Positions 35,726 through 63,441 of a stretch of 64,000 bases of DNA are shown here, in pieces. The stretch is from NCBI RefSeq assembly GCF_024158125.1, contig NZ_JAMZFT010000001.1, positions 496,001-560,000 on the forward strand. Reading direction: 5' to 3'. How positions within the stretch are numbered: the stretch's first letter is position 1; each line of letters begins with the position of its first letter. Under the pieces are notes generated by a model, which worked only from the letters and a program-made list of their open reading frames with translations, did no database searches and was not told where the DNA came from. The position numbers were made by a program, and so were the translations under genes. Source of the DNA: Futiania mangrovi. Lineage in GTDB: Bacteria > Pseudomonadota > Alphaproteobacteria > Futianiales > Futianiaceae.

Positions 35726-35729
35726 CGCC

Positions 35730-36008
35730 TCAGCCGCCCGGTACCGTCGCCGCCGTCTCCACGAAGGGATTGGCGAAAAGCAGGATCATCGAGACCACGA
35801 AGCAGTAGATCGCGGTGGATTCGATCATGGCGAGGCTCACGAACAGGGTCCGGGTGATCGTGTTCGCCTCGTCCGGCTGCTGGGCGATGGATGCGAGCGC
35901 CTGCGCGGCGGCCCGCGCCTCGCCCAGTGCTGGCGCGATGGAGCCGACGGCGATCGTCAGGCCCGCGGTCAGGATCGAGACGGCCGCGATCAGGTCGAAG
36001 GAGTCCAT
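35730..36008 (-). CDS. atpE: N-type ATPase c subunit (rotor ring)
   Basis: This 92-residue proteolipid makes the membrane rotor. Two helices are visible (about 8-38 and 53-80). The ion-binding carboxylate is Glu63 in MIESTAIY with Ser64, Thr65 and Tyr68. Aligned with sodium-type c subunits, the position of the sodium-ligand Gln32 is a second carboxylate, Glu30 in APALGEARAAAQAL. The loop AQQPDE is the F1 contact. The two-carboxylate site has been described in Fusobacterium and in Burkholderia N-ATPase rings, the latter reported proton-specific. Ion choice here is therefore open. It starts 19 bases inside atpB. Confidence 0.95.
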   Translation of the reverse strand: MDSFDLIAAVSILTAGLTIAVGSIAPALGEARAAAQALASIAQQPDEANTITRTLFVSLAMIESTAIYCFVVSMILLFANPFVETAATVPGG

Positions 36009-36736
36009 GGCTCGTTCTCCATTGGCTCGGGGGAGGAAGGGGGCGTGCGGCCGTTCTCGTCGCCCGCGCCGACGTGGGCGCGCGTTGCGGAGGCGATGTA
36101 GACCATGGCGAGAATGGCGAAGATGTAGGCCTGCACGAAGCCCGTGATCAGCCCCAGAAGCTGCATGACCACAGGAAAGAAGAAGGGCGCGATGCCGATC
36201 AGCACGCCCGCGATCACGGTCCCGCTCATCACGTTGCCGTAGAGACGGATGGCAAGCGCGATGGTGCGCGAGATCTCGCCGAGGATGTTGAACGGCAGCA
36301 TCAGCAGTGTCGGGCGCGCATAGCCCAGGAGATAGCGTGCCAGCCCCCTTCGCCGGATGCCGTAGACCGGCACCGCGATCAGGACGCAAAGTGCCAGCGC
36401 CGCGGTCGTGGACAGCGACGCCGTCGGCGGCGCATAGCCCGGGACGATGGCCAGCAGGTTCGCCGCCGCGATGAACAGGAAGAGGGTGCCCACGAACGGC
36501 AGGTAGGTGTCCGGCCGGTCGGCGCCGACGTCGGCGATCTGGCCGCGGATGGCGGTGACGATCACTTCCAGCATGTTCTGCCAGGGCGAGATCGTCTCGC
36601 TGTCGTCCAGCCGCAGCGTGATCGCCCGTGCCCCCACGGCGAGCAGCGCCATCACCGCCCAGGTGAACGCGATCGTGGCGTTGAGCGTCAGGCCCCAGCC
36701 CTGCCAGATCACCCATTGGTCCGTGCTGATGTTCAT
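35990..36736 (-). CDS. atpB: N-type ATPase a subunit
   Basis: This 248-residue stator channel protein has about five to six spans. The essential arginine is Arg164 in TIALAIRLYGNVMSG, and the last span block is LLGLITGFVQAYIFAILAMV with YIASA after it. A Pro/Glu-rich tail follows (to PEPMENEPWTPST). N-ATPase a subunits are of this length and class. Its ATG overlaps by four bases the stop of the tiny open frame that may be what remains of atpR. Good conservation leaves no doubt about the family. Confidence 0.95.
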   Translation of the reverse strand: MNISTDQWVIWQGWGLTLNATIAFTWAVMALLAVGARAITLRLDDSETISPWQNMLEVIVTAIRGQIADVGADRPDTYLPFVGTLFLFIAAANLLAIVPGYAPPTASLSTTAALALCVLIAVPVYGIRRRGLARYLLGYARPTLLMLPFNILGEISRTIALAIRLYGNVMSGTVIAGVLIGIAPFFFPVVMQLLGLITGFVQAYIFAILAMVYIASATRAHVGAGDENGRTPPSSPEPMENEPWTPST

Positions 36737-36774
36737 GGCGTGCGAACCTGTCCGGCGGTGCGCGGGTCAGTCAT
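36733..36774 (-). other. Thirteen-codon frame at the atpR position
   Basis: ATG at 36774 to TGA at 36733 encodes only MTDPRTAGQVRTP. It begins inside the last codons of atpQ and its stop overlaps the atpB start (ATGA), the two junctions expected of an atpR gene. N-ATPase operons usually carry atpR, a roughly 80- to 100-residue membrane protein, exactly here. The frame could be a remnant after an internal deletion that kept both coupled junctions, or simply a chance frame; it has no membrane segment. The open frame reading upstream of this ATG is only a shadow of atpQ. Confidence 0.35.
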
Positions 36775-37080
36775 GGCGGCTCTCCCGGCTGACCCAGAAC
36801 CAGGCGTTGAGGCAGCCCAGCGCGACGCCCGCCAGAAGCAGCGCAAGTGTCCAGGAGATGCGGCCGCCCACATGTGCGTCGAGCCAGACGCCCAGCGCGA
36901 CGCCCGCCAGTGTCGGAATCGCGACCGCCCAGCCGACGAGCCCGAACATGCCGAGGCCGAACCAAACGCTGCGCTCGCCGCGGGCACGGGCGCGGGCCTT
37001 GCGCGCGGCGCTCTCTCCGATCCGGTCGGCGACCCGGTCCGGATCGGGGTCGCGCCGAGGCCCGGTGTCGGCGGGGGTCG

Positions 37081-37084
<4 letters not shown>
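36767..37084 (-). CDS. atpQ: N-type ATPase AtpQ (AtpI-like) membrane protein
   Basis: This 105-residue protein has a charged N-terminus of about 40 residues (Asp/Arg-rich) and two membrane helices (WFGLGMFGLVGWAVAIPTLA and WTLALLLAGVALGCLNAWFW). It ends in VSRESRHD. This is the ATPase gene 1 type found as AtpQ in N-ATPase operons, related to AtpI/AtpZ, which help c-ring assembly or Mg/Ca transport. Overlap of four bases with atpC upstream shows coupling. The frame is conserved-looking to the end, so the missing neighbour AtpR is not fused to it. Confidence 0.85.
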
Positions 37085-38934
<1,850 letters not shown>

Positions 38935-49108: not shown

Positions 49109-49161
49109 CCACGCCTCCTCCGGGGACGGCGCGAGGGAGCGGGAACGACCGAGAGGGTTTG

Positions 49162-49179
49162 ACATACCGAGTAGTATGT
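49162..49179. promoter_or_regulatory. TetR-type operator before the OYE-liv operon
   Basis: ACATACCGAGTAGTATGT contains perfect six-base arms ACATAC/GTATGT. A TTGACA -35 hexamer (49159-49164) overlaps the left arm, so binding would block the promoter. The reverse strand of a second copy at 60221-60238 matches it at nearly every base. Found 120 bases before the OYE-type reductase gene and by position read rightward. Confidence 0.75.
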
Positions 49180-49301
49180 TAGACGATTGGCTTAACGCCG
49201 GGGCAACCGGCGAGGGCTGGCCGCAGGACGGCGACAGGGGAGGCAAGGTGGCGGATGGCGATGCGTGTCGCAGGCTTTCCGGCCGAGAGGGCGAGGAAGG
49301 G

Positions 49302-51401
49302 ATGAGCGCGTTTCCGGCGCTCTTCTCTCCGTTTCGTCTTGGCAGCCTTGCGCTCGCCAATCGCATCGTCATGGCCCCGATGGAAACCAACATGTCGGGT
49401 CCGGACGGAAGCGTCACCGACCGGATGATCGCCTATTACGCGGCGCGGGCCGCGGGCGGGGCGGGCCTCGTCACGGTCGAGTTCACCTGCGTCGACCGCC
49501 CGGCGGGTCTCGGCGCAAGCCCGCAACTGAGCCTCGACAGCGACGATCTGATCGCGGGGCATCGGCGTCTCGTGGACGCGATCCATGCCGCGGGTTCGAA
49601 GGCCTGCCTGCAGATCCATCACGCCGGGCGGCAGACGCTCCTGAGGCACACGGGCGGCGTGCAGCCGGTCGCACCCTCGGCCATCGCCTGCCGGTCGTTC
49701 CGGGTGCAGCCGCGCGAGCTTACCGTGCCGGAGATCGCAGGCCTGGTCGACAGGTTCGCCGCCGCCGCCGCGCGCGCGGTCGAGGCGGGCTACGACGCCA
49801 TCGAACTGCACGGCGCGCATGGCTACCTGCTCGGCCAGTTCCTGTCGCCGCACAGCAACCGGCGCACCGACATCTACGGCGGGGACGAGGCACGCCGCCT
49901 GCGCTTCCCTTGCGAGGTGATCGCGGCGGTGAAGGCCGCGGCGGGCGGCCGGCCGGTGATCTATCGCCTTTCCGCGGCAGAATATGTGGAGGGCGGCCTC
50001 ACCATCGAGGACACGGTGCGCCTCGCCCCATACCTGACGGCGGCCGGGGCGGACGCGCTGCATGTCTCGACGGGGACCGGGGAGCGGCTCGACTGCAACG
50101 TCGATCCGGTGAACCACGCGGAGGGATGGCGGCTGCCGCTCGCCCGCGCGATCCGGGAGGCCGCTGGCGTGCCGGTGATCGGCGTCGGCGTCATTCGCCA
50201 TCCGGAGGTCGCCGACAAGGCGGTGGCGGGCGGCGACTGCGATCTCGTCGCGCTGGGCCGCGCGCTGCTGGTCGATCCGCAGTGGCCGGAGAAGGCGCGG
50301 GACGGACGGGCGGGCGAGATCCGCCCCTGCACCTCCTGCAACTGGTGCATCGACCGGCTGATGGCGGACGTGCCCGTGGGCTGCGCGGAGAACCCGCGGG
50401 CGGGCCGCGAGGGTGAGCCCGATCCGTTGTCAGCGCGGGCGGAGGGACTGCGTGCAATTGTCGTCGGCGCGGGGCCGGGCGGTATCCAGGCGGCGCTGAT
50501 GCTGGACGCGGCGGGGATGGACGTGACGCTGCTCGAAAGGCGCACCGCGCCCGGGTCCGGCGTGACGGTCTCGGGCATGCCGCCGGGCAAGGACAAGTTT
50601 CTGTGGTACCGTGACCATCTCGCGGGAGAGCTGGCCCGAAGCCGGGTTGCCCTGCGCTGCGGTGTGGAGGCGACGCCGGACATGGTCGCACAGATGCACC
50701 CCGACCTTGCGGTGGTGGCGATCGGCGGAACGGACCGCCGCCCGTCCGTGCCGGGGCTCGGCCTGCCGAACGTCGTTCCGGCCTACGAGGTCCTCGCGGG
50801 CGAGGTGGCGCTGGCCGACGGGCCGCTCGTCGTCTGGGGCGGGGGCGAGACGGGCTGCGAGGCCGCCGAACACGCCGCCGCGCAAGGGCGCCGCGTGACG
50901 CTTGTGACGGCGGGGCCGGAGAAGCGGCTCGCGCGCCGCGCGCAACTGATCTACCGGCGTCAGCTTCTCAAAAGGATTGCCGAGAACCCGTCGATCGAGG
51001 TGCGCGCGGGTTGCCGGATGCTGGAAATCCTGCCCGATGGCGTCCGCGTCGCGGGGGAGGACGGCGCGGTGGGGCACATCCCCGCAGTGCAGGTGCTGGT
51101 CGCGCAGGGGCGGGGCGCGCAGGCGGATTTCGCCGAAACGCTTGCCGCGCGCGGTCTCGCCGTCGCCGAGATCGGCGACTGCCGCGACGTGCGCCGGATC
51201 GGCGACGCGGTCGACGACGCCTACGAGGCGGTCGCGAGCTTTCTCACGTCGCGTGCGTCCGGGAAGGGCGGGACGGCGTCCCGGCCATGGACCTGGCCCG
51301 CGCGCGGCGCACTACAGCCTTCCGCACCGGCGGCCAGCCGCCAGGCGGACACGACAGACAAGGGGCGGCTGAACGCCCCGGACCGGACGGCCGCGGTCTG
51401 A
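49302..51401 (+). CDS. OYE-type FMN/4Fe-4S/FAD oxidoreductase
   Basis: This 699-residue protein has the 2,4-dienoyl-CoA reductase/trimethylamine dehydrogenase architecture. The FMN barrel contains LQIHHAGRQ (104-110) and GAHGYLLGQFLSPHSNRRTD; four cysteines for a 4Fe-4S cluster are Cys343, 346, 349 and 361 (CTSCNWC...GC). A FAD-binding fold AIVVGAGPGGIQ follows near 388, then an NAD fold LVVWGGGETGCEAAEHA. It probably reduces a conjugated or alicyclic enoyl compound. The C-terminal 40 residues are low-complexity. ATG at 49302 follows GCGAGGAAGGG. It leads an operon with a Liv-type importer. Confidence 0.88.
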   Translation: MSAFPALFSPFRLGSLALANRIVMAPMETNMSGPDGSVTDRMIAYYAARAAGGAGLVTVEFTCVDRPAGLGASPQLSLDSDDLIAGHRRLVDAIHAAGSKACLQIHHAGRQTLLRHTGGVQPVAPSAIACRSFRVQPRELTVPEIAGLVDRFAAAAARAVEAGYDAIELHGAHGYLLGQFLSPHSNRRTDIYGGDEARRLRFPCEVIAAVKAAAGGRPVIYRLSAAEYVEGGLTIEDTVRLAPYLTAAGADALHVSTGTGERLDCNVDPVNHAEGWRLPLARAIREAAGVPVIGVGVIRHPEVADKAVAGGDCDLVALGRALLVDPQWPEKARDGRAGEIRPCTSCNWCIDRLMADVPVGCAENPRAGREGEPDPLSARAEGLRAIVVGAGPGGIQAALMLDAAGMDVTLLERRTAPGSGVTVSGMPPGKDKFLWYRDHLAGELARSRVALRCGVEATPDMVAQMHPDLAVVAIGGTDRRPSVPGLGLPNVVPAYEVLAGEVALADGPLVVWGGGETGCEAAEHAAAQGRRVTLVTAGPEKRLARRAQLIYRRQLLKRIAENPSIEVRAGCRMLEILPDGVRVAGEDGAVGHIPAVQVLVAQGRGAQADFAETLAARGLAVAEIGDCRDVRRIGDAVDDAYEAVASFLTSRASGKGGTASRPWTWPARGALQPSAPAASRQADTTDKGRLNAPDRTAAV

Positions 51402-51441: not shown

Positions 51442-52590
51442 ATGAAGCGCAAGTTGATGACATGGCTCGCCGCCGGCCTCATGGCCGTCGGGGGCGCGGC
51501 GCACGCCGCAGACGCGCCGAAGGATCCCGAGGTGTTCCGGATCGGCGCGATCCTGGCCATGAGCGGCAAGGCCGACTGGTACGGCAAGGTCATGAGCCAG
51601 GGCATCCTGCAGGCCGTCGAGGAGATCAACGCCAAGGGCGGTATCGACGGCATCAAGCTGGAAGCCGTGATCGAGGACCACAAGAGCGGCGTCGCCAAGG
51701 AAGGCGTCGCGGCCATGAACCGCCTGATGAACCTCTACAACGTCCAGGTGGTGCTGACGTCGTTCTCGCCGCCGACGCTGGCCATCGCGCCGATCGCCGA
51801 CGAGAAGGGCATCCTGCTGCTCAATGGCGGCGGCGTGAGCACGGCACTCGTGGGCGCGTCGAAGTACCTGTTCCACAACCGCTCGCTGGCGTCCGACCTC
51901 GGCCGTGCGGCGGCGGCGCGCGCGAACGACCAGGGCCTTAAGAAGATGGCGCAACTCGCGTGGAAGACCGACGCGGGCGAGAGCGTGATCGCGGGCGTCG
52001 AGCCCTATTGGAAGAACCTGGGCGGCACCATCGTGGCGACCGAGTTCATGGACGTCGGCGCGCCGAACATCGACACGCAGGCGGCCAAGATCCGGGCGTC
52101 CAACCCGGACTGGGTGGCGCTCTGGCTGTTCAGCCCGGATCCGGGCCTCGCCATCAAGCGCGTGCGCGAGTTCGGCATGAAGGTGCCGATCATTGGCATC
52201 GAGTACACCGACGACATCGCCAAGGGGGCGGGCAAGTTCATCGAGGGGTATGAGTACACCTCCGACTACTTCACCCCGTCGGCAGGCTGGTCGAAGTCGT
52301 TCTCCGACGGCTACCAGCAGCGTTATGGCGCCGCACCGGAGTTCTATGCCGCCAACTACTACGAGGCGGTCTATGTCGCGGCGGAGGCGATCCGCCGGGC
52401 GCGCGCCAAGGGCGGCGACTACTACAAGGGCGACAAGCTGGCTGCCGAGATCCGGGCGAACCCGGTCTTCGACAGCGTCTACGGCGACACCATGACCTAC
52501 CAGGACAACGGCGTCGCAACGAAGCCGGTCGCGCTGTTCAAGGTGGAGGACGGCAAGCCCGTCTTCCAGAAGTACGTCAAAGCCCAGTGA
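51442..52590 (+). CDS. livK: Branched-chain-type ABC importer, solute-binding protein
   Basis: This 382-residue periplasmic binding protein has a signal peptide (MKRKLMTWLAAGLMAVGGAA, cleaved near HAAD). The mature part opens FRIGAILAMSGKADWYGKVM and has PIADEKGILLLNGGGVSTAL. The LivK-like type 1 fold binds amino acids, but catabolic members bind aromatic or alicyclic acids. It follows the reductase gene by 40 bases with AAGGAGGAGG before the ATG, a strong site. A long hairpin separates it from livH. The symbol reflects class only. Confidence 0.88.
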   Translation: MKRKLMTWLAAGLMAVGGAAHAADAPKDPEVFRIGAILAMSGKADWYGKVMSQGILQAVEEINAKGGIDGIKLEAVIEDHKSGVAKEGVAAMNRLMNLYNVQVVLTSFSPPTLAIAPIADEKGILLLNGGGVSTALVGASKYLFHNRSLASDLGRAAAARANDQGLKKMAQLAWKTDAGESVIAGVEPYWKNLGGTIVATEFMDVGAPNIDTQAAKIRASNPDWVALWLFSPDPGLAIKRVREFGMKVPIIGIEYTDDIAKGAGKFIEGYEYTSDYFTPSAGWSKSFSDGYQQRYGAAPEFYAANYYEAVYVAAEAIRRARAKGGDYYKGDKLAAEIRANPVFDSVYGDTMTYQDNGVATKPVALFKVEDGKPVFQKYVKAQ

Positions 52591-52614
52591 CACCTGGGGC
52601 ACGGGCCTGAAGAC

Positions 52615-52643
52615 CCGGAGGGCGGCATGGCGCCGCCCTCCGG
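52615..52643 (+). promoter_or_regulatory. Long stem-loop between livK and livH
   Basis: CCGGAGGGCGGC (52615-52626) pairs perfectly with GCCGCCCTCCGG (52632-52643) around the loop ATGGC. Twelve G/C-rich pairs with no T run argue against simple termination. It sits between a receptor gene and the permease genes, the usual place for a message-stabilising hairpin that raises receptor levels. Confidence 0.6.
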
Positions 52644-52670
52644 CCTGCCCGCAACCGAGGCCGTATTCCG

Positions 52671-53540
52671 ATGGATCTTCTGCTCCAGCTACTCGTCAAC
52701 GGGTTCATCAACGGAAGCCATTACGCGCTTCTGGGGGTGAGCTTCGGACTGATCTTCGCCACGACACGCATCGTGCACTTCGCCTATGGCCCGGTGTTCA
52801 CGGTCGCCGCCTATTGCGGGTGGTTCGTGTCCGGCGCGATGGGCCTGCCCGTCGTTCTGGGCTTCGCGGCCGCAATCGGCGCGGCGGTGGTGCTCGGCGT
52901 GCTCAGCTATCTCGTGGTCTACCGCCCGCTCGAGCTTAACAACGCGCCGCACCTCGTGCCGCTGATCGCCTCGCTCGGCCTCTACATCGTGATCGAGAAC
53001 ATGGTGGGGATCGTCTTCGGGTCGGGTGTCCGGGTGGTGGACGACCTCAGCTACGAGATCTTCCTCGTGGGCCCGCTGTTCTTCACGGAGATCCATGTCT
53101 GGCAGGTGGCGAGCTTCGTCATCCTCGGCCTCGCGCTGTTCGCGTTCCTGCGCCACACCCGCTACGGCAAGGCGATCCTCGCCATGACCGACAATGCGGA
53201 GATGGCGCGCGTCATCGGCATCGACACGTTCCGCATCACCATTCTCGTGTTCGTCATAGGCTCGGCCATCTCGGCGGTGCCGGCCATGCTGATCCTGCTG
53301 AAGGACGGCGGCAGCACGCACATGGGTTTCGCGGCCGTGTTCATGGGCTTCGTCGCGGTCTTCATCGGCGGCATCGGCTCGCTGAAGGGGGCGGCTGTGG
53401 GCGGCTTCGTCCTCGGCCTCGTGGAGAGCCTCGGCCTCTGGCAGATCCCGACCGAATGGCAGAACTCCATCGCCTTCGTCGTGCTGTTCCTGATGATCAT
53501 GCTGCGCCCGCAGGGGCTGTTCGGCACCAACCGGACCTGA
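52671..53540 (+). CDS. livH: Branched-chain-type ABC importer, permease LivH
   Basis: This 289-residue integral membrane protein has about eight helices. LivH marks are NGFINGSHYALLGVSFGLIF, YRPLELNNAPHLVPLIASLG, the EAA-like loop HTRYGKAILAMTDNAEMARV, and GFAAVFMGFVAVFIGGIGSL. It forms the channel with the permease half of the next protein. The ATG at 52671 is close to the first helix. It precedes the fused livM-livG gene by ten bases. Confidence 0.92.
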   Translation: MDLLLQLLVNGFINGSHYALLGVSFGLIFATTRIVHFAYGPVFTVAAYCGWFVSGAMGLPVVLGFAAAIGAAVVLGVLSYLVVYRPLELNNAPHLVPLIASLGLYIVIENMVGIVFGSGVRVVDDLSYEIFLVGPLFFTEIHVWQVASFVILGLALFAFLRHTRYGKAILAMTDNAEMARVIGIDTFRITILVFVIGSAISAVPAMLILLKDGGSTHMGFAAVFMGFVAVFIGGIGSLKGAAVGGFVLGLVESLGLWQIPTEWQNSIAFVVLFLMIMLRPQGLFGTNRT

Positions 53541-53550
53541 GGGGCGGACC

Positions 53551-55257
53551 ATGGACTATCTTCTGCACATCCTGGTGATGGTCTGCTTCTACGCAATCCT
53601 CGCCACATCGTTCAATCTGCTGATCGGCTTCGCGGGTCTGTTCGCGCTGTCGCACGCGGCGTTCTACGCCTTCGGCGCCTATGCGACGGCCATCGCGACG
53701 ACGACGCTCGGCCTGCCGTTCCCGCTGCCGCTGCTGCTGTCGATCGTGGTCGCGGGCTTCATCGGCGTGCTGATCGCGCTGCCGGCGCTGAGGGTCGCGG
53801 GCGAGTATCTCGTGGTCGTCTCGCTGGCCCTGCAGATCATCGCCATCGAGGTCTTCATCAACTGGAAGGAAGTGACCGGCGGCACCGACGGGATCAGCGG
53901 CGTGCCGAAGCTCGAACTCTTCGGCTTCGGCTTCGACTCGCCCGGCAAGTTCCTGATCCTCGCGGTGGTCATGGCGGTCTTCTGCTTCTGGGTGGCGACG
54001 CGGCTTGCCCGCTCTCCGTTCGGGCGCGCGCTGAGGGCGATGCGCGAGAACGAGAGCGCGGCCCAGGCCGTGGGCAAGAACATCCTTTACATGAAGGTCT
54101 CGGTCTTCGCCGTGTCGGCGAGCCTCGCGGCCATCGCGGGCTGGATGTTCGCGCGCTACTTCTCCTATGTGGGCGCCGACAGCTTCACCATCGACGAGAC
54201 CATCTACATCCTCGCCATGGTGATCCTCGGCGGCACGGGTAACCTCTGGGGCTCGGTGCTGGGCGCGGCGATCCTGGTCATCCTGCCGGAGCTTCTGAAG
54301 TTCATCGACATGCCGGTCGACATCGCCGACAAGATGCGGCTCGTCATGTACGGCGTGGTGCTGGTCCTCATCCTGCGCTTCCGGCCGGAGGGCATGCTGC
54401 CCGAACCGCGCGGTCTCGCGGCCATGACGGTCGACCTCTCCGGCGAGGACCTGAAGCCCGCGCGCGAGGGCGAGACCTTCCGCGGCGGCAGCGCGCAGAA
54501 GGGCGAGGTCGTGATGCGCGGCACCGACCTGAAGAAGACCTTTGGCGGCATCACCGCGGTCTCGCATCTCTCCATCGAGCTGAAGAGCGGCTGGATCACC
54601 GGCCTGATCGGTCCGAACGGGGCGGGCAAGACAACGGCGTTCAACCTGCTCACGGGCTTCCTCAAACCCACCGGTGGCGAGATCGAGCTGCGCGGGCGCA
54701 AGGTGGAGAACCTGAAGCCTCACCAGGTCGTCGGAAGCGGGGTCGCGCGGTCCTTCCAGGACCTGCGGCTCTTCACCAAGATGACGGTGATCGAGAACGT
54801 GATCGTCGCGCTTCCCGGCCAGTCGGGCGACAACCTGGCGAACGTCTATTTCCGGCCCTGGGCGGTGCGCGCGGAGGAGCATGAGAACGCCGCCCGCGCA
54901 ATGGAGATCCTGCGGTTCGTGGATCTCGACGGCAAGGCGCACGAGACGGCGGAGAACCTGTCCTACGCGGAGGAGAAGCTGCTGGTGGTTGCCCGCCTGC
55001 TGGCGACGGGGGCGGAGGTGCTGCTGTTCGACGAGCCGCTATCGGGCCTCGACCGCACGACGCTGCAGGAAATCTTCCCCGTCATCCGCAAGCTCGCGGA
55101 GAACGGCAAGACGATCTGCATCATCGAGCACAACCTCGACGTCATCAAGGAACTCTGCGACGTCGTCTACTTCCTCGACGAGGGGCACGCCATGGCCATC
55201 GGCACCCCCGACGAGGTCATGAACGATCCCGAGCTGGCGACGAGGTACTTCAAATGA
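53551..55257 (+). CDS. Fused LivM permease and LivG ATPase
   Basis: This 568-residue protein joins two subunits normally encoded separately. Residues 1-285 are a LivM-like permease (FNLLIGFAGLFALSHAAFYA, the loop ARSPFGRALRAMRENESAAQ). A linker of about 35 residues follows. Residues 320-568 are a LivG-like ATPase: P-loop GPNGAGKT (354-361), Q-loop RSFQDLRLF, Walker B LLFDEP (492-497) and His in IIEHNLDVI. The ABC signature is unusual: LSYAEEKLL instead of the LSGGQ type. Such fusions occur in other proteobacteria. Its stop overlaps livF by four bases, giving two ATPases with one fused to the membrane part. Confidence 0.9.
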   Translation: MDYLLHILVMVCFYAILATSFNLLIGFAGLFALSHAAFYAFGAYATAIATTTLGLPFPLPLLLSIVVAGFIGVLIALPALRVAGEYLVVVSLALQIIAIEVFINWKEVTGGTDGISGVPKLELFGFGFDSPGKFLILAVVMAVFCFWVATRLARSPFGRALRAMRENESAAQAVGKNILYMKVSVFAVSASLAAIAGWMFARYFSYVGADSFTIDETIYILAMVILGGTGNLWGSVLGAAILVILPELLKFIDMPVDIADKMRLVMYGVVLVLILRFRPEGMLPEPRGLAAMTVDLSGEDLKPAREGETFRGGSAQKGEVVMRGTDLKKTFGGITAVSHLSIELKSGWITGLIGPNGAGKTTAFNLLTGFLKPTGGEIELRGRKVENLKPHQVVGSGVARSFQDLRLFTKMTVIENVIVALPGQSGDNLANVYFRPWAVRAEEHENAARAMEILRFVDLDGKAHETAENLSYAEEKLLVVARLLATGAEVLLFDEPLSGLDRTTLQEIFPVIRKLAENGKTICIIEHNLDVIKELCDVVYFLDEGHAMAIGTPDEVMNDPELATRYFK

Positions 55258-55964
55258 GCGACGCGATCCTCGAAACGCGCGGGCTGGCCGCGGGGTATGG
55301 CAAGAAGCGTGTGATCTTCGGCATCGACCTCGCGCTGAAGAAGGGCGAGGTGCTGCTGGTCCTCGGCCACAACGGTGCGGGCAAGACCACGCTGATGCAG
55401 GCGATCTTCGGCCTCCTCAAGCCGATGGACGGCCAGGTCCTGCTCGACGGGCGCGACATCACGGGGCGCACGCCGGCCGCCAACGTGCACGACGGCGTCG
55501 CCTTCGTGCCGCAGGGCCACGGCATCTTCCGTACGCTGTCGGTGCGCGACAACCTCGAACTCGGCGGTTTCGTCGAGGAGGAGAAGGACAAGCTGCCCGA
55601 GCGCATCCAGACGGTCTATGAGCTGTTCCCGGTCCTGAAGGAGCGGCAGAACCAGATCGGCGGCACCATGTCGGGCGGCCAGCAGCAGATGCTCGCCATC
55701 GGCATGGCACTGATGCATGCCCCCCGCGTGCTCATCCTGGACGAGCCGTCCATCGGCCTCGCTCCGAACCTCGTCGAGCGCGTCATGCAGTCGATCCGCC
55801 AGATCAACGAGCGGTTCGGCACCTCGATCCTCATGGTGGAGCAGAACGTGCAGTACAGCCTGCCCATCGCGCACCGGGCGACGGTCATCAAGACCGGCGA
55901 GGTCGTCTACAACGGCGATCCCGCGCCACTGGGCGACCATGTGAAGCTGATGACGCTGTTCTGA
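55254..55964 (+). CDS. livF: Branched-chain-type ABC importer, ATPase LivF
   Basis: This 236-residue ATPase has the P-loop GHNGAGKT near residue 40, the signature MSGGQQQMLAIGMALM, and Walker B RVLILDEPSIGLAPN. The C-terminal half ends with VQYSLPIAHRATVIKTGEVV as in LivF. Unlike its fused partner, its signature is normal. The start overlaps the LivM-LivG stop by four bases. Its product pairs with the fused ATPase domain to drive the importer. Gap to the cyclase-family gene is 29 bases, in the same operon. Confidence 0.93.
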   Translation: MSDAILETRGLAAGYGKKRVIFGIDLALKKGEVLLVLGHNGAGKTTLMQAIFGLLKPMDGQVLLDGRDITGRTPAANVHDGVAFVPQGHGIFRTLSVRDNLELGGFVEEEKDKLPERIQTVYELFPVLKERQNQIGGTMSGGQQQMLAIGMALMHAPRVLILDEPSIGLAPNLVERVMQSIRQINERFGTSILMVEQNVQYSLPIAHRATVIKTGEVVYNGDPAPLGDHVKLMTLF

Positions 55965-55993: not shown

Positions 55994-57034
55994 ATGACCC
56001 AACGCTGGAAGAAACGCCCAGAGGGCTCTACCTGGGGCGATTTCGGCCCCGACGACGAGAACGGGCGGCTGAACCTGCTGACGCCGGAGCGGGTAAGGCG
56101 CGCGGTCGCCGAGGTGAAGGAAGGGCGGACGTTCTGCCTCAGCCTGCCGCTTGACTATCCCGGCGGCAACCTGCTGAACGATCGGCGCCATCCGCCGCGC
56201 ACCTTTTCCACGATCCGGGACGGCAAGGCGAATTACAACTACCGGCTCGACCAGCACGACGGGGCGCTGACCGACGTCATCAGCGACGACGCCGCCCTGA
56301 TCCATTTGCAGTATTCGACGCAGTGGGACGGGCTCTCACACGTCGGCAGCCTGTTCGACGCCGACGGCGACGGCGTGCCGGAGGTGGTCTATTACAACGG
56401 CTGGCGGGGCGGTGAGGACATCGTCGGCCCGTCGGGTCACGCGCACGGCGACGGCTGCAGCGAATACGAGGGCGCGCACGCCGACCGCCTCGGCATCGAG
56501 AAGATGGCGCAGCGGTGCGTGCAGGGCCGCGGCGTGATGGTCAACCTCAACGCCCACTTCGGCGAGGAGCGCAAGCTCGTCGGTTACGACGAGCTGATGG
56601 CCGTCATGGAGGCGGACAAGGTTGAGGTGGAGGAGGGCGACATGCTCTGCCTGCACACGGGCTTTGCGCGCATGGTGCTGCGCATGAACAGGACGCCCGA
56701 CCCGAAGAAGCTGCACGGTGCCTGCCCGGTGCTGAACGGGCGCGACAAGCGGCTGCAGAACTGGATCACCGACACCGGGATCGCGGTGCTCATTGCTGAC
56801 AATTACGCGGTCGAGGCCTATCCGTCCGAGCCGGGCGAGGGCAAGCACGCGGCCCTGCCGCTGCACGAGCATTGCCTGTTCAAGCTGGGCGTGCACCTGG
56901 GCGAGCTTTGGTACCTGTCCGATCTCGCCGATTACCTGCGGGCCAACGGCCGGTCGCGCTTCCTGCTGACCGCGCCGCCCCTGCGCCTGCCGGGCGCGGT
57001 GGGTTCGCCCGCGACGCCGGTCGCAACCGTCTGA
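55994..57034 (+). CDS. Cyclase-family metal-dependent hydrolase
   Basis: This 346-residue protein belongs to the cyclase family (kynurenine formamidase/isatin hydrolase fold). The metal motif is present as QYSTQWDGLSHVGSLFD, where Trp-Asp and His occupy the usual HxGTHxDxPxH positions. Further blocks are HADRLGIEKMAQRCVQGRGV and the EEGDMLCLHTGFARM strand, ending with LADYLRANGRSRFLLTAPPL. Members open amide or lactam rings or hydrolyse cyclic ketones. It ends the liv operon; a hairpin follows. In this context ring opening of an imported cyclic acid is plausible but unproven. AACGGAGACGACGAGAGCC precedes the ATG. Confidence 0.85.
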   Translation: MTQRWKKRPEGSTWGDFGPDDENGRLNLLTPERVRRAVAEVKEGRTFCLSLPLDYPGGNLLNDRRHPPRTFSTIRDGKANYNYRLDQHDGALTDVISDDAALIHLQYSTQWDGLSHVGSLFDADGDGVPEVVYYNGWRGGEDIVGPSGHAHGDGCSEYEGAHADRLGIEKMAQRCVQGRGVMVNLNAHFGEERKLVGYDELMAVMEADKVEVEEGDMLCLHTGFARMVLRMNRTPDPKKLHGACPVLNGRDKRLQNWITDTGIAVLIADNYAVEAYPSEPGEGKHAALPLHEHCLFKLGVHLGELWYLSDLADYLRANGRSRFLLTAPPLRLPGAVGSPATPVATV

Positions 57035-57096: not shown

Positions 57097-57552
57097 TCAG
57101 TCGACGATGCCGTCGCGTCCCTCAATGGTCATGAGCGTCGCGGTCAGGTGGGCGGCGAGCTTCTCCCGCCCGTCCGCGATGGCCACGACGTCGGTCTGGG
57201 CGAGCGTGAGCGTGCGCCCGGCCTTCAGCACGCGCCCCCGGGCCACGATCCGCTCCCCCGCGGCCGGCGCGAGGAAGTTGACCTTGAACTCGGTCGTGAG
57301 CACGCCCACGCCTGCCGGCATCAGGCTCAACGCCGCATAGCCCGCGGCGCTGTCGGCGATGGCGGCGACGGCGCCGCCATGTACAAAGCCATACTGCTGC
57401 GACACCGCGGGCGCGACCGGGAGGGCGATCTCCACCTTGCCCGGGTCGAGCCGCACGATGGACGCGCCGAGCGTGGTCATCAGGCCCTGCTTGCCGAAGC
57501 TCTGCAGGACGCGCGACCGGAAGTCCGGGTCCTTCGCTGCGTGCGCGCTCAA
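57097..57552 (-). CDS. PaaI-type hotdog thioesterase
   Basis: This 151-residue hotdog-fold protein has YGFVHGGAVAAIADSAAGYA (about 45-64), the loop seen in PaaI-like acyl-CoA thioesterases, with the catalytic Asp equivalent in ADSAAGYAAL. Strands LTTEFKVNFLAPAAGERIVA and GRTLTLAQTDVVAI follow. It hydrolyses blocked CoA thioesters to free CoA. Position at the end of a dehydrogenase-thiolase operon suggests a rescue role for CoA. It follows the dehydrogenase gene by 13 bases. Confidence 0.88.
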   Translation of the reverse strand: MSAHAAKDPDFRSRVLQSFGKQGLMTTLGASIVRLDPGKVEIALPVAPAVSQQYGFVHGGAVAAIADSAAGYAALSLMPAGVGVLTTEFKVNFLAPAAGERIVARGRVLKAGRTLTLAQTDVVAIADGREKLAAHLTATLMTIEGRDGIVD

Positions 57553-57565: not shown

Positions 57566-58486
57566 TTACACCGGATCCCAGGAGAACACGTCCGCCGAGA
57601 CCTGGAGCGGCACGAAGCTGCCCTTCAGCGCGGGCATCCCGTGCTCGGCGATGGTCTCCGGCGTCCAGCCCTCGCCGCGATGGACCGAGCGGACGGGGCG
57701 CGGCTGGCTGAACAGGAAGATCTCGTTGTTGCGAACGCCGAAAATCTGGCCGTTCACGTCCGCCGCCGCGTCCGACGACAGATAGACCGCCATCGGCGCG
57801 ATCTTGTCGGGCGTCATGCGCTGCAGTTTCTCCACGCGCGCCTTCTGGTCCGGCGTGTCGGTCGGGATCGAGCCGATCATCCGGCTCCACGCGAAGGGCG
57901 AGATGCAGTTCGAGCGCACGCCGAAGCGCTGCATGTCCAGCGCGATGGCCTTCGACAACCCGACGATGCCGAGCTTGGCAGCACCATAGTTCGCCTGGCC
58001 GACGTTGCCGATGAGGCCCGTGGTCGAGGTGAAGTGCACGAAGGTGCCCGCCCCCCGGTCGCGGTAGTGCAGGGCAGCCGCCTTCGAGACGTAGAAGGAG
58101 CCCATCAGGTGCACGCCCACCACCTGCTCCCAGTCGAGCACGGACATGCGGTGGAAGATGCGGTCGCGCAGGATGCCCGCGTTGTTGACCACCGCGTCGA
58201 GCTGGCCGAAGGCGTCGAGCGCGGTCTTCACGATGGCCTCGCCGCCCTGCGGTTCGGCGACGGAGTGCCCGTCGATCACCGCCTCGCCGCCGAAGCCGCG
58301 GATGATGTCGCGCACCTCCTCCGCGGGGCCTGCGTCCTCGCCCTCGCCGCTGACCGACGCGCCGAGGTCGTTCACTACCACCCGCGCGCCGTGCCTGGCC
58401 ATCAGGATCGCGATCTCGCGCCCGATGCCGCGGCCCGCGCCCGTCACGACGGCGACCTTGCCGTCCATCATTTTCGTCTCGCTCAT
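57566..58486 (-). CDS. Short-chain dehydrogenase, MFE-2-like
   Basis: This 306-residue SDR has VAVVTGAGRGIGREIA at the start, VVNNAGILRD, a Ser in HFTSTTGLIGN and YGAAK as the Tyr-Lys pair. The VVVNDLGASVSGEGEDAGPA insert after the nucleotide fold is the mark of peroxisomal-type multifunctional 3-hydroxyacyl-CoA dehydrogenases (MFE-2/HSD17B4-like). A C-terminal extension (from about 255, IFLFSQPRPVRSVHR) is not typical of small SDRs. It likely oxidises a 3-hydroxyacyl-CoA in the pathway of this locus. It sits 26 bases downstream of the thiolase-like gene. Confidence 0.9.
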   Translation of the reverse strand: MSETKMMDGKVAVVTGAGRGIGREIAILMARHGARVVVNDLGASVSGEGEDAGPAEEVRDIIRGFGGEAVIDGHSVAEPQGGEAIVKTALDAFGQLDAVVNNAGILRDRIFHRMSVLDWEQVVGVHLMGSFYVSKAAALHYRDRGAGTFVHFTSTTGLIGNVGQANYGAAKLGIVGLSKAIALDMQRFGVRSNCISPFAWSRMIGSIPTDTPDQKARVEKLQRMTPDKIAPMAVYLSSDAAADVNGQIFGVRNNEIFLFSQPRPVRSVHRGEGWTPETIAEHGMPALKGSFVPLQVSADVFSWDPV

Positions 58487-58512: not shown

Positions 58513-59664
58513 TCAGAGCGTCTCTTCGGTGCCGAGGATGCTGGTCACCTGGCTCGACAGCGTGCCGCCGTTCCCGTGGGCGAGCGCGGTCTTCGCGCCC
58601 GCGATCTGCCGCTCGCCGCAGGTGCCGCGGAGCTGCCGGACCGCCTCGATCACCGTATAGAGGCCGTACATGCCGGGATGGACGCAGGAGAGCCCCCCGC
58701 CGTTGGTGTTGACCGGCAACTCGCCCCCCGGCGCGATCCGCCCGCCGGAGACGAAGGCGCCGCCTTCACCCTTCTTGCAGAAGCCGAGGTCCTCCAGGAA
58801 CAGGATCGTGTTGATCGTGAAGGCGTCGTATAGCTCCAGCACGTCCATGTCGGAGGGCTTGAGGCCCGCCATCTCGAACGCGCGCGGACCCGACTCCGAA
58901 GCCGCCGTGACCGTCATGTCCGGCATCATGGAGATCTGCCGGTGCCAGTGCGCGCCCGCCGCGCCCAGCAGGTAGGCGGGCTTCTGCTTCATGTCCTTCG
59001 CGCGGTCGGAGCGGACCATGACGACCGCCGCGCCGCCGTCGGTGACGAGGCAGCAGTCGTACTTGGTGAAGGGGTCCGAGATGGGGCGCGCGTTCAGCAC
59101 GTCCTCGATGGTCAGGGGATCGCGGGCGAAGGCTTCCGGGTTCAGTTGCGCCCATTTGCGCGCGGCGACTGCGACCTCGGCCAGCTGCTCGCGCGTGGTG
59201 CCGTACTCGTACATGTGGCGGGAGGCGGCGAGCGCATAGGCGCTGACGGGATAGCGGGGGCGGTAGGGGGCCTCGTACACCTGCGGCTCCGACATGGAGA
59301 CGAGGCGGCCGCCGATGGTGCGCTGGTTCGAGCCGTAGCAGATCAGCGCGACATTGCAGAGCCCGGCCTCCAGCGCCATGGCCGCGTTCAGCAGGTGCAT
59401 CACGAAGGAAGAGCCGCCGACCATGCTGCCGTCGGAATAGGTGGGGCGGATGCCCAGGTATTCCGCCGCCGACAGCGTCGGCATGTAGTGGAAGGCGGAA
59501 CCCGTGAAGAGGCCGTCGACATCCGACAGCGTCAGGCCCGCGTCGTCGAGTGCATTGATGCTTGCCTCGGCCAGAAGCTCGATGGCGTTGCGGCCCGGTG
59601 CCTCCGGACGGTTCGCGAGGCCGACGCCGACGACCGCTGCCTTGCCGCGCAGGGAATGTGCCAT
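58513..59664 (-). CDS. Thiolase-like protein lacking catalytic cysteines
   Basis: This 383-residue protein has the thiolase (SCPx/lipid-transfer) fold. At the nucleophile position there is no cysteine: DGSMVGGSSFVMHLL (78-92). The His in VHPGMYG (329) remains. The second cysteine, normally in a CxG turn, is replaced in LAHGNGGTLSS (362-370). A conserved ELYDAFTIN segment is at 277-285. Pairing with a DUF35 gene directly upstream matches Ltp2-like complexes, which act as retro-aldolases on steroid side chains rather than as thiolases. So a carbon-carbon cleaving aldolase is likely; substrate is unknown. ATG at 59664 fits the conserved start. Confidence 0.87.
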   Translation of the reverse strand: MAHSLRGKAAVVGVGLANRPEAPGRNAIELLAEASINALDDAGLTLSDVDGLFTGSAFHYMPTLSAAEYLGIRPTYSDGSMVGGSSFVMHLLNAAMALEAGLCNVALICYGSNQRTIGGRLVSMSEPQVYEAPYRPRYPVSAYALAASRHMYEYGTTREQLAEVAVAARKWAQLNPEAFARDPLTIEDVLNARPISDPFTKYDCCLVTDGGAAVVMVRSDRAKDMKQKPAYLLGAAGAHWHRQISMMPDMTVTAASESGPRAFEMAGLKPSDMDVLELYDAFTINTILFLEDLGFCKKGEGGAFVSGGRIAPGGELPVNTNGGGLSCVHPGMYGLYTVIEAVRQLRGTCGERQIAGAKTALAHGNGGTLSSQVTSILGTEETL

Positions 59665-59681
59665 GGGGTTGCTCCTTCTTC

Positions 59682-60080
59682 TTATTGGCCAGCGGGGACG
59701 AAGACGACGGCGGGTTCGCCGTTCAGCGTGTCGATGCGCGCGCGCACCGCCATGCCGATCTTCACGTCCGCGGGCGCGATGTCGACGACCGTGCTCATCA
59801 TCCGGCAGCCTTCCTTGAGGTCGACCATGCAGACATTGTGGTCGCCGCCCTTCTCGGGCCGGTTGCGCACGACCGTCGTCGCGTAGACGGTGCCTTCGCC
59901 CGACGCCTCGATCCACTCCAGGTCGGTCGCGCCGGTTCCGGGCTCGACGAGGCGCGGGAAAAAATAGCAGCGCCCGCTCGACCGGCTGCGCTGGATCAGG
60001 AACCTGCCCTCCGCAAGTGCGTCCCGGAAGATCCGGTCGGGGCCCTTGCCCTCGCCATGGATGGGGTCGGTTGCGGTCAT
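59682..60080 (-). CDS. DUF35 OB-fold partner of thiolase-like protein
   Basis: This 132-residue protein has an N-terminal helix (RIFRDALAEGRFLIQR), a remnant of the rubredoxin-like zinc ribbon (SSGRCYFFPRLVEPG with only one cysteine, where CxxC...CxxC is usual), and an OB fold (GEGTVYATTVVRNRPEK, then VRARIDTLNGEPAVVFVPA). DUF35 proteins complete the active site of thiolase-like aldolases. Loss of the zinc cysteines may mean a metal-free ribbon. It leads the minus-strand operon, 17 bases before the thiolase-like gene, with GACGAGGAGACCGC before the ATG. It is divergent from the acyl-CoA dehydrogenase gene. Confidence 0.85.
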   Translation of the reverse strand: MTATDPIHGEGKGPDRIFRDALAEGRFLIQRSRSSGRCYFFPRLVEPGTGATDLEWIEASGEGTVYATTVVRNRPEKGGDHNVCMVDLKEGCRMMSTVVDIAPADVKIGMAVRARIDTLNGEPAVVFVPAGQ

Positions 60081-60210: not shown

Positions 60211-60239
60211 TTGACGGCCAACATACTACTCAGTATGTT
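60211..60239 (+). promoter_or_regulatory. Promoter and TetR-type operator of acyl-CoA operon
   Basis: TTGACG (60211-60216) and TATGTT (60234-60239) with a 17-base spacer form a good promoter. The palindrome ACATACTACTCAGTATGT (60221-60238; arms ACATACT/AGTATGT, perfect, four-base spacer) fills the spacer and covers the -10, so a bound repressor would block polymerase. Reverse complemented it nearly equals the site at 49162-49179. The likely binder is the TetR protein encoded two genes downstream. Confidence 0.78.
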
Positions 60240-60272: not shown

Positions 60273-61436
60273 ATGGGCGTGATCTGGGAACCTGAACTGG
60301 ATGCGGACGCGCGCCATTGGCAGGGCGTGGCGGACCGGCTGTCGCGGGAGCAGTTCGAGCCGCTGGCGGAGGAACTGGACCGCGAGCAGCGCTACCCTTA
60401 CGAGCACATCGAGGTGATGAAGAAGGAAGGCCTGTGCGGCCTGTTCCTGCCCAAGGCCTATGGCGGGCAGGGCGCCTCGCTCACGTCCGTCGTCTCCATC
60501 GTCGAGCGGGTGGCGATGGGCTGCGCGTCGACGTCGGCGATCCTCGCGGCCTACCAGCTTGGCGCCTTCCCGGTGCTGCTCGCGGGTACGGAGGAGCAGA
60601 AGCAGAAATACCTGGGCGGCATGGCGCAGGGCATCTCCGTCTGTTTCGCGCTGAGCGAGCGGGGCGCGGGCTCCGACGCCGCGGCGATCCAGGCGACCGC
60701 GACGCGCGACGGGGACAAATGGCACATCAAGGCGGACAAGTGCTGGCTCGGCAACGGCGGGGTCTCGCAGCACTACATCGTCTTCGCGCGCAGCGATCCC
60801 AAGGCGGGCAGCCGCGGCATCAGCGCCTTCATGGTCGACAAGGCGCAGGATGGTGTCGTGATCGACTTCTTCGAGGACAAGATGGGCATCCGCGGGACGC
60901 TCACCAGCAACCTCAAGGTCGACACGGCGGTCGATCATTCGGCCATGCTGGGGGAGGAGGGGCGCGGCCTGCGTCTCGCCCTGCAGACGCTCAATGTCGG
61001 GCGCATCACGGTCGCGGCGCAGGCGATGGGCATCGGCCTTGCGGCCTATCACGCGGCAGCCCGCTATGCGTGCGAGCGCAAGACCTTTGCGACCCCGATT
61101 ATCGAGCACCAGGGCATCGGCTTCAAGCTCGCGGACATGGCGACGGAGCTTTCGGCGGCGCGCATGATGCTCTACGAGGCGGCCAGGGCCTACGACCAGG
61201 GCCGCGACGTAGCGACCATCGGCGCAATGGCCAAGCTCTACACCAGCGAGGTATCGCACCGCGCGGTCGACGCGGCGGTGCAAATCCACGGCGGGGCGGG
61301 CTATGTGAAGCCGAACCCGGTCGAGCGCTACTACCGCGATCAGCGCATCACCGAGATCTACGAGGGCACCTCGGAAATTCAGAGACTCGTGCTTTCGCGC
61401 GCAATCCGCAAGGATGCCGACCGGTCGAACGGGTAG
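60273..61436 (+). CDS. Acyl-CoA dehydrogenase
   Basis: This 387-residue flavoprotein has the full family pattern: FALSERGAGSDAAAIQ (125-140), the KADKCWLGNGG block, MGIRGTLTSNLKV, and the C-terminal helix QIHGGAGYVKPNPVERYYRD. The catalytic base is Glu364 in EIYEGTSEIQRL. It makes the first double bond in beta-oxidation-like pathways, passing electrons to ETF. Substrate is unknown, but the operon holds a CoA ligase and a TetR regulator. A GACAAGGGAGGGAAGG site precedes the ATG. Thirty bases separate it from tetR. Confidence 0.94.
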   Translation: MGVIWEPELDADARHWQGVADRLSREQFEPLAEELDREQRYPYEHIEVMKKEGLCGLFLPKAYGGQGASLTSVVSIVERVAMGCASTSAILAAYQLGAFPVLLAGTEEQKQKYLGGMAQGISVCFALSERGAGSDAAAIQATATRDGDKWHIKADKCWLGNGGVSQHYIVFARSDPKAGSRGISAFMVDKAQDGVVIDFFEDKMGIRGTLTSNLKVDTAVDHSAMLGEEGRGLRLALQTLNVGRITVAAQAMGIGLAAYHAAARYACERKTFATPIIEHQGIGFKLADMATELSAARMMLYEAARAYDQGRDVATIGAMAKLYTSEVSHRAVDAAVQIHGGAGYVKPNPVERYYRDQRITEIYEGTSEIQRLVLSRAIRKDADRSNG

Positions 61437-61465: not shown

Positions 61466-62113
61466 ATGGACAGGAGTGCGCGGGCGGAAGCGGGCGAGGA
61501 CGACAAGGCGGACGGCCGCGCGGCGGTCCTGGAGGCGGCGGCGCGGGCGTTCATGCAGGACGGCTATGCCGCGACCTCGATCGACGACGTGGCCGGGTTG
61601 CTGGGCGCGACGAAGGGGCGGGTCTATTACTACTACCGCAGCAAGGCGGACCTGTTCTTCGACGTTCACCGCGAATCCATGCGGCAGAACATGGAAGGGG
61701 CGGGCCGGATCGCGCTGGAGGACGCGCCCGCGCTCGATCGGCTGGAGCGCATGGTGCGCGCGCACGCGCTGCTGATGATGACGCACCTGCCGTTCCAGCG
61801 GGTCTCGGTGCTGGGGGTGGAGATGCACCTCGCAGGCAGCACCACGCCCCGCCAGCGCAAGACGCTGAACGAGATCGTGGAGTTGCGCGACGCCTATGAG
61901 CAGCGCTTCGTGGACGTGATCTCGCAGGGCATCGCGGAGGGCGCGATCCGTCCGCTCGACGTGAAGATGGTGGTGCGCGGGCTGCTGGGCGCGCTCAACT
62001 GGATCACGGTCTGGTACCGGCCCCGCGAGGGCGAGACGGACGCCGACCGGGCGCGCATGGCCGACGAACTGACAACATACCTGATAAACGGTTTGCGGAG
62101 GGATGAGGCGTGA
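61466..62113 (+). CDS. TetR-family regulator, KstR2-like ligand domain
   Basis: This 215-residue repressor has an N-terminal helix-turn-helix (AAARAFMQDGYAATSIDDVA, then GLLGATKGRVYYYYRSKADL). The C-terminal ligand domain has ELRDAYEQRFVDVISQGIAE and a GLLGALNWITVWYRP segment, the pattern of the KstR2/YsiA-like group that senses CoA thioesters. An N-terminal extension of about 20 charged residues is present. It lies within the operon it probably controls and has four bases overlap with the CoA ligase gene (GTGA). The paired operators at 49.1 and 60.2 kb are predicted to be its sites. Confidence 0.9.
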   Translation: MDRSARAEAGEDDKADGRAAVLEAAARAFMQDGYAATSIDDVAGLLGATKGRVYYYYRSKADLFFDVHRESMRQNMEGAGRIALEDAPALDRLERMVRAHALLMMTHLPFQRVSVLGVEMHLAGSTTPRQRKTLNEIVELRDAYEQRFVDVISQGIAEGAIRPLDVKMVVRGLLGALNWITVWYRPREGETDADRARMADELTTYLINGLRRDEA

Positions 62114-63441
62114 TCGTAGCGGAGCCGTATTCGGCCGATGTCTGGGACGAGCGGGAACTCTGGTCGCGCGACCGGATCGAGGCACACCAGCTGTCCGCCC
62201 TGAAGACGCAGCTTGCCCGCGTCGCCCGCGACAGCGCGCACTATGCGCAGGTGTTCAAGGACGCAGGGTTCGAGGCGGGTGATCTCACGTCCTTCGACGA
62301 CCTGCGCGCGCTGCCGCTGACGCGCAAGTCGGACTACCTGAAAAGCGTGGAGGCCGCGCCGCCCTTCGGGTCGATGCTGGCGGTCGCACCTGAGGACGTG
62401 ATCCGGGTGCACTTCTCCTCCGGCACGACGTCCAAGCCCTCGCCCGACTGCTGGACCGGCGCCGACATCGAGCGCTGGGCCGACCTCTATGCCCGGCTCG
62501 CCTACAGCCACGGCGTGCGCAAGGGCGACGTCTACCAATGCCTGTTCAACTTCTCCTGGTTCGTGGGCGGGCTCGGCGCCTTCATGGCCTATCAGCGGAT
62601 CGGTGCGATCTGCATCCCGGGCGGCAGCGGCGACAGCGAGCGCCAGATCGACACCATGTTCGAGTATGGCACGACCTGCACGACCTCGACGCCCTCCTTC
62701 ATGGCGCACCTGGCGGAGGTCGCGCGCAAGATGGGCCGCGATCCGCGCCAGACCAAGGTTTCCAAGATCATGCTGGGGGGCGAGCCCGGCGCGAACATCC
62801 CCGCCACGCGCCAGATGATCGAGGAGCTTTGGGACGCCAGGTGCTACGACGGCTACGGCAGCCTGGAGTTCCAGCCGATCGCCTGGGATTGCGCCGCGCA
62901 GAACGGGCCGCACCTTGTAGAGGATTTCGCGTTCGCCGAGGTGCTGGACCCCGACACCCACGAGCCCGTGGCCGACGGCACGCCGGGCGTGCTGGTGCTC
63001 ACCCATCTCGACAAGCAGGCGACGCCGCTGGTGCGCTGGTGGACCGGCGACATGGTGGTGCGCGACCGGGCGCCCTGTTCGTGCGGGCGCACGCATGCCC
63101 GCCTGGTCGGCGGCGTGCAGGGCCGTGCCGACGACATGATGGTCATTCGCGGCGTCAACGTCTTCCCCTCCGCGGTCGAGGAGGTGGTGCGCTCCACCCC
63201 CGGCACGACGGGCGAGTACCTGATCGTGCTCGACAAGGACACGCGCGATGCGAAGACGGGCTTCCTCACGGGCTTCAAGCTGCGCATCGAGGCGGCGAAG
63301 GGTGCACCAGCCGACCTCAAGGAGCGGATGGCCGCCGCCGTGCGCACGCGTCTGCAGGTCCGCGCCATCGTCGAGGTGATGGCGGAGGGAGAGCTTCCCC
63401 GCTCCACCCACAAGGCCAAGCGCATCCTGCGCGAGGAGTGA
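62110..63441 (+). CDS. PaaK-like acyl/aryl-CoA ligase
   Basis: This 443-residue adenylate-forming enzyme resembles phenylacetate-CoA ligase. The P-loop HFSSGTTSKPS is at 101-111, then WYARL-like helix ERWADLYARLAYSHGVRKGD, and the motif DGYGSLEF supplies A5. TGDMVVRDRAPCSCGRTHAR and GRADDMMVIRGVNVFPSAVE are typical of PaaK. The C-terminal catalytic lysine is in THKAKRILREE. It activates an aryl or alicyclic carboxylic acid to its CoA ester using ATP. It starts with GTG overlapping the tetR stop and has no other ATG choice nearby. No paa genes are present, so the acid is not phenylacetate by context. Confidence 0.9.
   Translation: MIVAEPYSADVWDERELWSRDRIEAHQLSALKTQLARVARDSAHYAQVFKDAGFEAGDLTSFDDLRALPLTRKSDYLKSVEAAPPFGSMLAVAPEDVIRVHFSSGTTSKPSPDCWTGADIERWADLYARLAYSHGVRKGDVYQCLFNFSWFVGGLGAFMAYQRIGAICIPGGSGDSERQIDTMFEYGTTCTTSTPSFMAHLAEVARKMGRDPRQTKVSKIMLGGEPGANIPATRQMIEELWDARCYDGYGSLEFQPIAWDCAAQNGPHLVEDFAFAEVLDPDTHEPVADGTPGVLVLTHLDKQATPLVRWWTGDMVVRDRAPCSCGRTHARLVGGVQGRADDMMVIRGVNVFPSAVEEVVRSTPGTTGEYLIVLDKDTRDAKTGFLTGFKLRIEAAKGAPADLKERMAAAVRTRLQVRAIVEVMAEGELPRSTHKAKRILREE

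Follow-up and report, generated by a model that had tools for sequence, protein, structure and literature searches.

Two adjacent genes in the genome of Futiania mangrovi raise the question of which reaction a thiolase-fold protein would carry out once its thiolase cysteines are gone, and what its DUF35 partner would do without a zinc site. Both lie within a stretch of 64,000 nucleotides (nt) (contig NZ_JAMZFT010000001.1, positions 496,001–560,000), referred to here as the window. A preliminary description of this DNA had read them as a probable aldolase, with the steroid side-chain aldolase Ltp2 as precedent. On the basis of sequence comparisons we consider it rather probable that the pair is a coenzyme A (CoA)-dependent retro-aldol lyase of thiolase fold with a DUF35 subunit, and the aldolase reading is the best supported one. 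The thiolase-fold protein itself is a routine member of a widespread named family, NCBIfam NF004811.

Catalytic positions of the thiolase-fold protein

Both genes were found where the preliminary description had placed them, the motifs GGSSF and HGNGG are present, and its numbering of His329 is correct. It had taken GGSSF as the nucleophile region, but alignment to the CASGG of 7yvy puts the nucleophile position itself at Met81, two residues ahead of GGSS, and the protein thus lacks the nucleophilic CxS Cys of SCP2-type or canonical thiolases. The second catalytic cysteine of SCP2-type thiolases lies within HDCF (PMC12329534). Here Tyr279-Asp-Ala-Phe (YDAF) occupies the place of the thiolase HDCF or NEAF, and the C-terminal turn has HGNGG at the final cysteine position. 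A thiolase cysteine is therefore missing at all three places, although the term cysteine-less goes too far for a protein with 7 Cys, several of which are more than 90% conserved. Cys327 was rejected as a substitute catalytic Cys, because some members carry Tyr or Phe at this position, and 4U4E carries Tyr. The GHP histidine of thiolases is retained as His329.

Among 88 aligned sequences Tyr279, Asp280, Phe282, Gly83, Gly84 and His329 (88/88) are invariant, and this pattern is therefore not due to chance. Ala281 is conserved at 98%, and position 81 is freely variable (M 50%, N 27%, R 7%). The active-site loops rank among the most conserved regions (Y279, D280, F282, N319, T320, H329, G364, and G366). 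A random sample from the class repeated the Y279-D-x-F/H329 pattern, the exceptions being two distant matches (L135 and L138) that do not keep both elements.

We also compared a mixed set consisting of paralogs from the same genome, relatives, and IpfD of the ibuprofen plasmid pIBU218. Where the nucleophile Cys is present it is accompanied by HD (once QD), and where it is absent by YD. Paralog L115 (G000:C1:682580-683743) falls outside both groups. It has its own DUF35, YAPC in place of YDxF and no nucleophile Cys, and so departs from the thiolase as well as the aldolase pattern; relative L138 shares its motif.

Nearest relatives and proposed reaction

The thiolase-fold protein scored 677 bits against NF004811 (PRK06158, "acetyl-CoA acetyltransferase"; curated cut-off 421), with the match covering positions 4–384 of the 384 in the profile. 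PRK07855 (lipid-transfer protein) gave 258 bits, below its threshold of 469 bits. By sequence, 4U4E is the nearest solved structure, the aldolases Sal (9MYR) and Ltp2 (6OK1) are next, and the true thiolases follow; the family profile gave 272 bits for Sal, 237 for Ltp2 and 194 or less for every true thiolase. The predicted model (pLDDT 87.1) was compared with known structures, rows up to 1 Z apart being counted as ties. Sal (9myr_A, VIA Z 49.8), Ltp2 (6ok1_C, 49.7), 4U4E (48.3) and TbSLP (47.9) came first, followed by thiolases with the Cys at 46.9 at most and canonical thiolases at 33–34. By both the profile and the predicted structure, Sal and Ltp2 are the nearest characterised structures and stand above all true thiolases.

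Tyr279 aligns with the catalytic Tyr of the steroid aldolases, Y294 in Ltp2 and Y302 in Sal. Mutagenesis has shown this Tyr to be essential in both enzymes, which differ from each other in their second catalytic residue (PMC12329534). The precedent applies in part. In its favor, Ltp2 and Sal are nearest, the Tyr never varies and the nucleophile Cys is missing throughout; the active site, on the other hand, departs from that of Ltp2, having His329 instead of Tyr344 and Ala281 instead of His296. His329 was placed at Ltp2 Tyr344 and Sal Gln352 by alignment, in a loop that is gapped in Ltp2, together with the published Tyr344–Gln352 equivalence. No characterised aldolase was found to combine such a Tyr with His at that position.

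By analogy with Ltp2-ChsH2(DUF35) and Sal-Shy(DUF35), the two proteins most likely form a 2+2 heterotetramer. The substrate that we infer as the best reading is a β-hydroxyacyl-CoA, formed within a module for the degradation of CoA-activated acids. In such a module the LivKHMGF transporter would take up the acid, the PaaK-like ligase would activate it, the acyl-CoA dehydrogenase would dehydrogenate the acyl-CoA, and a MaoC protein encoded just past the window would hydrate the product. Tyr279 would then remove the proton of the β-hydroxyl group, and the Cα–Cβ bond would break to give a ketone or aldehyde and an acyl-CoA enolate. The enolate may be protonated by His329, the former thiolase GHP histidine, while the DUF35 protein would dock and shape the pocket without a structural zinc. 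The system is conserved and probably catalytic, and would be a variant of the thiolase-fold aldolases rather than a separate kind.

The DUF35 partner and its zinc site

The C-terminal OB domain of the partner is recognized by PF01796 (63 bits, cut-off 27.1), in line with the OB fold noted earlier. The preliminary description had also credited the partner with one zinc-ribbon cysteine. This does not hold, since the four zinc positions are S32, S35, E46, and T49, and Cys38 occupies a non-ligand position that is mainly His or Tyr in relatives. There is no His within residues 26–56, so neither a four-Cys nor a Cys3His1 ribbon is present. The predicted full-length fold (pLDDT 92.9) resembles the DUF35 domains of ChsH2 (6ok1_D, VIA Z 15.3) and Shy (9myr_B, 15.1) over ≈120 residues, ribbon part included, as seen by predictions that are blind to metals. 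Substitute zinc ligands in the ribbon were rejected, because residues 26–56 of several zinc-free relatives contain neither Cys nor His.

The first set comprised 87 partners: 60 with four Cys, 26 with none and 1 with a single Cys. A class-wide sample of 16 further distinct partners gave five, five, and six, respectively. Overall, 65 of the 103 distinct partners have all four Cys and 38 have one or none, and two- or three-Cys forms were not found among these 103. A strict all-or-none loss of zinc was rejected when the class sample brought in the one-Cys type (CxxT...SxxT). This type reads CxxT...SPFTG in most cases and is a third state that occurs repeatedly in the class (L124, L125, L133, L134, and L135).

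Common to the zinc-free partners is the motif [RK]F[ML][IL]QR[SA]xx[ST]G...P[RK]...Px[ST]G..DL[ED]W, and because they carry a conserved motif of their own the label "degenerate" is not appropriate. A zinc-free partner had been anticipated as a further variation. The loss of the four ligands agrees with this, but it is a trait of a large existing family and not specific to the window.

A single origin of the zinc-free form was rejected on the thiolase tree (approximately unbiased test, AU p 0.0076) but passes on the short DUF35 tree (p 0.069), so both repeated loss and partner exchange are possible. Locus L012 has the same gene set as the window (identities: short-chain dehydrogenase/reductase (SDR) 70%, thiolase-fold protein 69%, acyl-CoA dehydrogenase 61%, TetR 52%, and ligase 63%), yet its DUF35 retains all four Cys. 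The zinc loss is therefore not coupled to a change of module.

For the NF004811 family, at least 594 matching stretches were found in the genome collection, and 62 plasmid records match at 60–80% identity. As the missing cysteines with the kept Tyr and the loss of the zinc site are common to many bacteria, NF004811 is probably a large family that is misnamed.

Gene neighborhoods and alternative explanations

The DUF35 gene lies within ≈60 nt upstream of the thiolase-fold gene in 78 of 86 loci and is adjacent to it in the window too. Other neighbors were counted in the 57 loci that span 12 kb or more, with cluster names taken from representative sequences and consistent with annotated plasmid copies. 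A MaoC or crotonase hydratase is found nearby in 40 of these loci, an acyl-CoA dehydrogenase in 38, the SDR in 23 and CaiB in 22, and a MaoC gene adjoins the cluster of the window. Neighborhoods with hydratase and acyl-CoA dehydrogenase fit hydration followed by retro-aldol cleavage. A literature search by gene content found no paper on the cluster.

Several points weigh against a retro-aldolase. The second catalytic residue of Ltp2 (Tyr344) or Sal (Cys304) is not kept. IpfD is an inexact match as well, having a Tyr-type "GFY" as in Ltp2 where the window protein has VHP with His329. The role proposed for His329 comes from the alignment, no activity for any NF004811 member was found in the searchable literature, and no aldehyde dehydrogenase is prominent among the recurrent neighbors. 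The main counter-argument is the SDR, because it would supply a thiolase: an MFE-2-like SDR in the same operon would yield a 3-ketoacyl-CoA, which is a thiolase rather than an aldolase substrate. The result could be a retro-Claisen reaction without a covalent Cys intermediate, in which Tyr279 and His329 provide acid/base catalysis for direct attack of CoA (or water) on the ketone. The position of the SDR gene directly behind the thiolase-fold gene, its recurrence among the long loci, the retained GHP histidine and the full β-oxidation set that acyl-CoA dehydrogenase, MaoC, SDR, and thiolase would make up all agree with this. We nevertheless hold such a thiolase to be unlikely, since the nucleophile position is unconstrained, the nearest characterised kin are aldolases, and this SDR is missing nearby in 22 of the 40 hydratase-bearing loci. 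To our knowledge, there is no precedent for a thiolase-fold thiolase without the nucleophile Cys.

Somewhat less likely still is an enzyme that works in the bond-forming direction, catalysing an aldol or a decarboxylative condensation, or one specialised for an unusual substrate, for example a ring diol thioester as proposed for IpfD. IpfD has the same YDAF, and the cluster, with its PaaK-like ligase and its LivKHMGF transporter, points to an acid that is aromatic or cyclic, but no ring dioxygenase occurs among the regions read, and the acyl-CoA dehydrogenase, hydratase, thioesterase, and transporter indicate breakdown of an acid. The loss of every catalytic cysteine would also suit a thiolase-derived acyl-CoA carrier or scaffold, a role proposed for DUF35 proteins in the case of carriers (PMC2954200); with active-site loops so highly conserved, for which a carrier has no need, we find this very improbable. 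The retro-aldol lyase remains the reading that we prefer.

Other features of the window and a shared palindrome

The features are collected in Table 1. On the minus strand the order is DUF35, thiolase-fold protein, SDR, and thioesterase, with intergenic gaps of 13–26 nt; a gap of 26 nt separates the SDR gene from the thiolase-fold gene that precedes it, and near-full-length copies of this SDR with 57–70% identity occur at many related loci. Directly past the window, locus L105 encodes a second SDR, the MaoC hydratase (single-domain), an AMP-forming ligase and a CaiB-type CoA transferase.

Table 1. Genes and sites in the window (positions counted from its first nucleotide).
Feature	Position	Strand	Basis
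Second palindrome copy, ≈120 nt upstream of flavin reductase operon	49161..49180		2 mismatches; chance expectation in window 0.00
Old-yellow-enzyme/2,4-dienoyl-CoA-reductase-like flavoprotein, opens second operon	49302..51401	+	PF00724 + PF07992
LivKHMGF-type ABC (ATP-binding cassette) transporter genes	51442..55964	+	PF13458 (binding protein); remaining subunits read from translations
Putative cyclase (kynurenine-formamidase-like)	55994..57034	+	PF04199
Hotdog (4HBT/PaaI-type) thioesterase, final gene of minus-strand operon	57097..57552	-	PF03061 + TIGR00369 above cut-off
SDR, read as resembling (3R)-hydroxyacyl-CoA dehydrogenase of MFE-2	57566..58486	-	PF13561/PF00106
Thiolase-fold protein, 383 amino acids (aa), probable CoA-dependent retro-aldolase	58513..59664	-	NF004811, catalytic positions, predicted fold
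DUF35 (OB-fold) partner, 132 aa, without zinc cysteines	59682..60080	-	PF01796, zinc positions, predicted fold
Perfect palindrome AACATACT-N4-AGTATGTT, between divergent DUF35 and acyl-CoA dehydrogenase genes	60220..60239		8-nt arms, 100% complementary
Acyl-CoA dehydrogenase, divergent from DUF35; start codon chosen by us	60273..61436	+	PF00441, PF02770, PF02771
TetR-family regulator	61466..62113	+	PF00440 + PF17932
Phenylacetate-CoA-ligase-like AMP-forming ligase	62110..63441	+	PF14535 + PF00501; PaaK models high yet under cut-offs

When up to two mismatches are allowed, the palindrome occurs at just the two sites listed in the 3.39-Mb genome. It is a probable TetR operator, and the TetR protein may bind it and control a two-site regulon. 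The acid transporter and the dienoyl-CoA-reductase-like enzyme would thereby be tied to the same pathway. The palindrome was not found in L012 despite the same gene set. Elsewhere in the window (34952–38900), minus-strand open reading frames (ORFs) resemble ATP synthase subunits, including a beta-subunit-like ORF at 37476–38900, and possibly represent a second ATPase operon.

Comparison with known systems

We tentatively suggest, as a possibility that falls a little short of being likely, that NF004811 and its near kin are thiolase-fold aldolases and form a large family not so far recognised as such. In these the active site would take a third form, with the Tyr of YDAF as base and the old thiolase His as acid, and they could plausibly stand half-way between thiolases and steroid aldolases. 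Their DUF35 subunit would have kept the partnership but shed its structural zinc, possibly several times, with all or nearly all ligands going together. The name of NF004811 is that of an acetyl-CoA acetyltransferase, an enzyme whose chemistry is missing from its members. If the suggestion is true, a family found on many proteobacterial chromosomes and plasmids should be renamed, and thiolase-fold aldolases would extend past steroids and ibuprofen, with a third catalytic arrangement for comparison. The DUF35 subunits would be metal-free, whereas all DUF35 structures known in 2019 bind zinc according to a paper of that year (PMC6996347).

Ltp2-ChsH2(DUF35) from Thermomonospora curvata has the same thiolase fold (root-mean-square deviation 2.3 Å over 368 residues), a YDxF with the catalytic Tyr, no nucleophile Cys and a DUF35 partner. 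It differs in having YDHF, where the window protein has YDAF, and in its DUF35, which has four zinc Cys and is fused to a MaoC-type domain, whereas that of the window is standalone. Sal-Shy(DUF35) from Comamonas testosteroni (PMC12329534) is equally close in fold and likewise has a DUF35 partner, but Sal has YDCY, with Cys304 at the place of Ala281, and Gln352 at that of His329; Shy binds its zinc by Cys3His1.

The solved structure nearest in sequence (E 7e-126) is 4U4E, a "putative thiolase" from Sphaerobacter thermophilus. It also lacks the Cys and keeps the His, but it has YDSF and HGTGG, and its structure carries no assigned function. The benzoylsuccinyl-CoA thiolase BbsAB (7PXP) combines a thiolase fold with a separate DUF35 as well; it differs in having HDAF and a lower structural score (Z 43.5), and in a DUF35 that has retained its zinc cysteines (PMC12329534).

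IpfD and IpfE from pIBU218 are similar in that IpfD (36% identity) has YDAF and no nucleophile Cys, and IpfE, encoded by a separate adjacent gene, is a DUF35 protein short of zinc ligands, with one Cys among the four positions. The ipfD mutant fails to grow on ibuprofen, and the step is described as that of a retro-aldolase (PMC9195938). Unlike the window protein, IpfD scores below the NF004811 cut-off (287 bits), and its substrate is a ring diol made by a dioxygenase. The same plasmid has a second thiolase-fold/DUF35 pair ≈11 kb from ipfDE (L112:939-2503), with the YDHF and four zinc Cys of the Ltp2 type.
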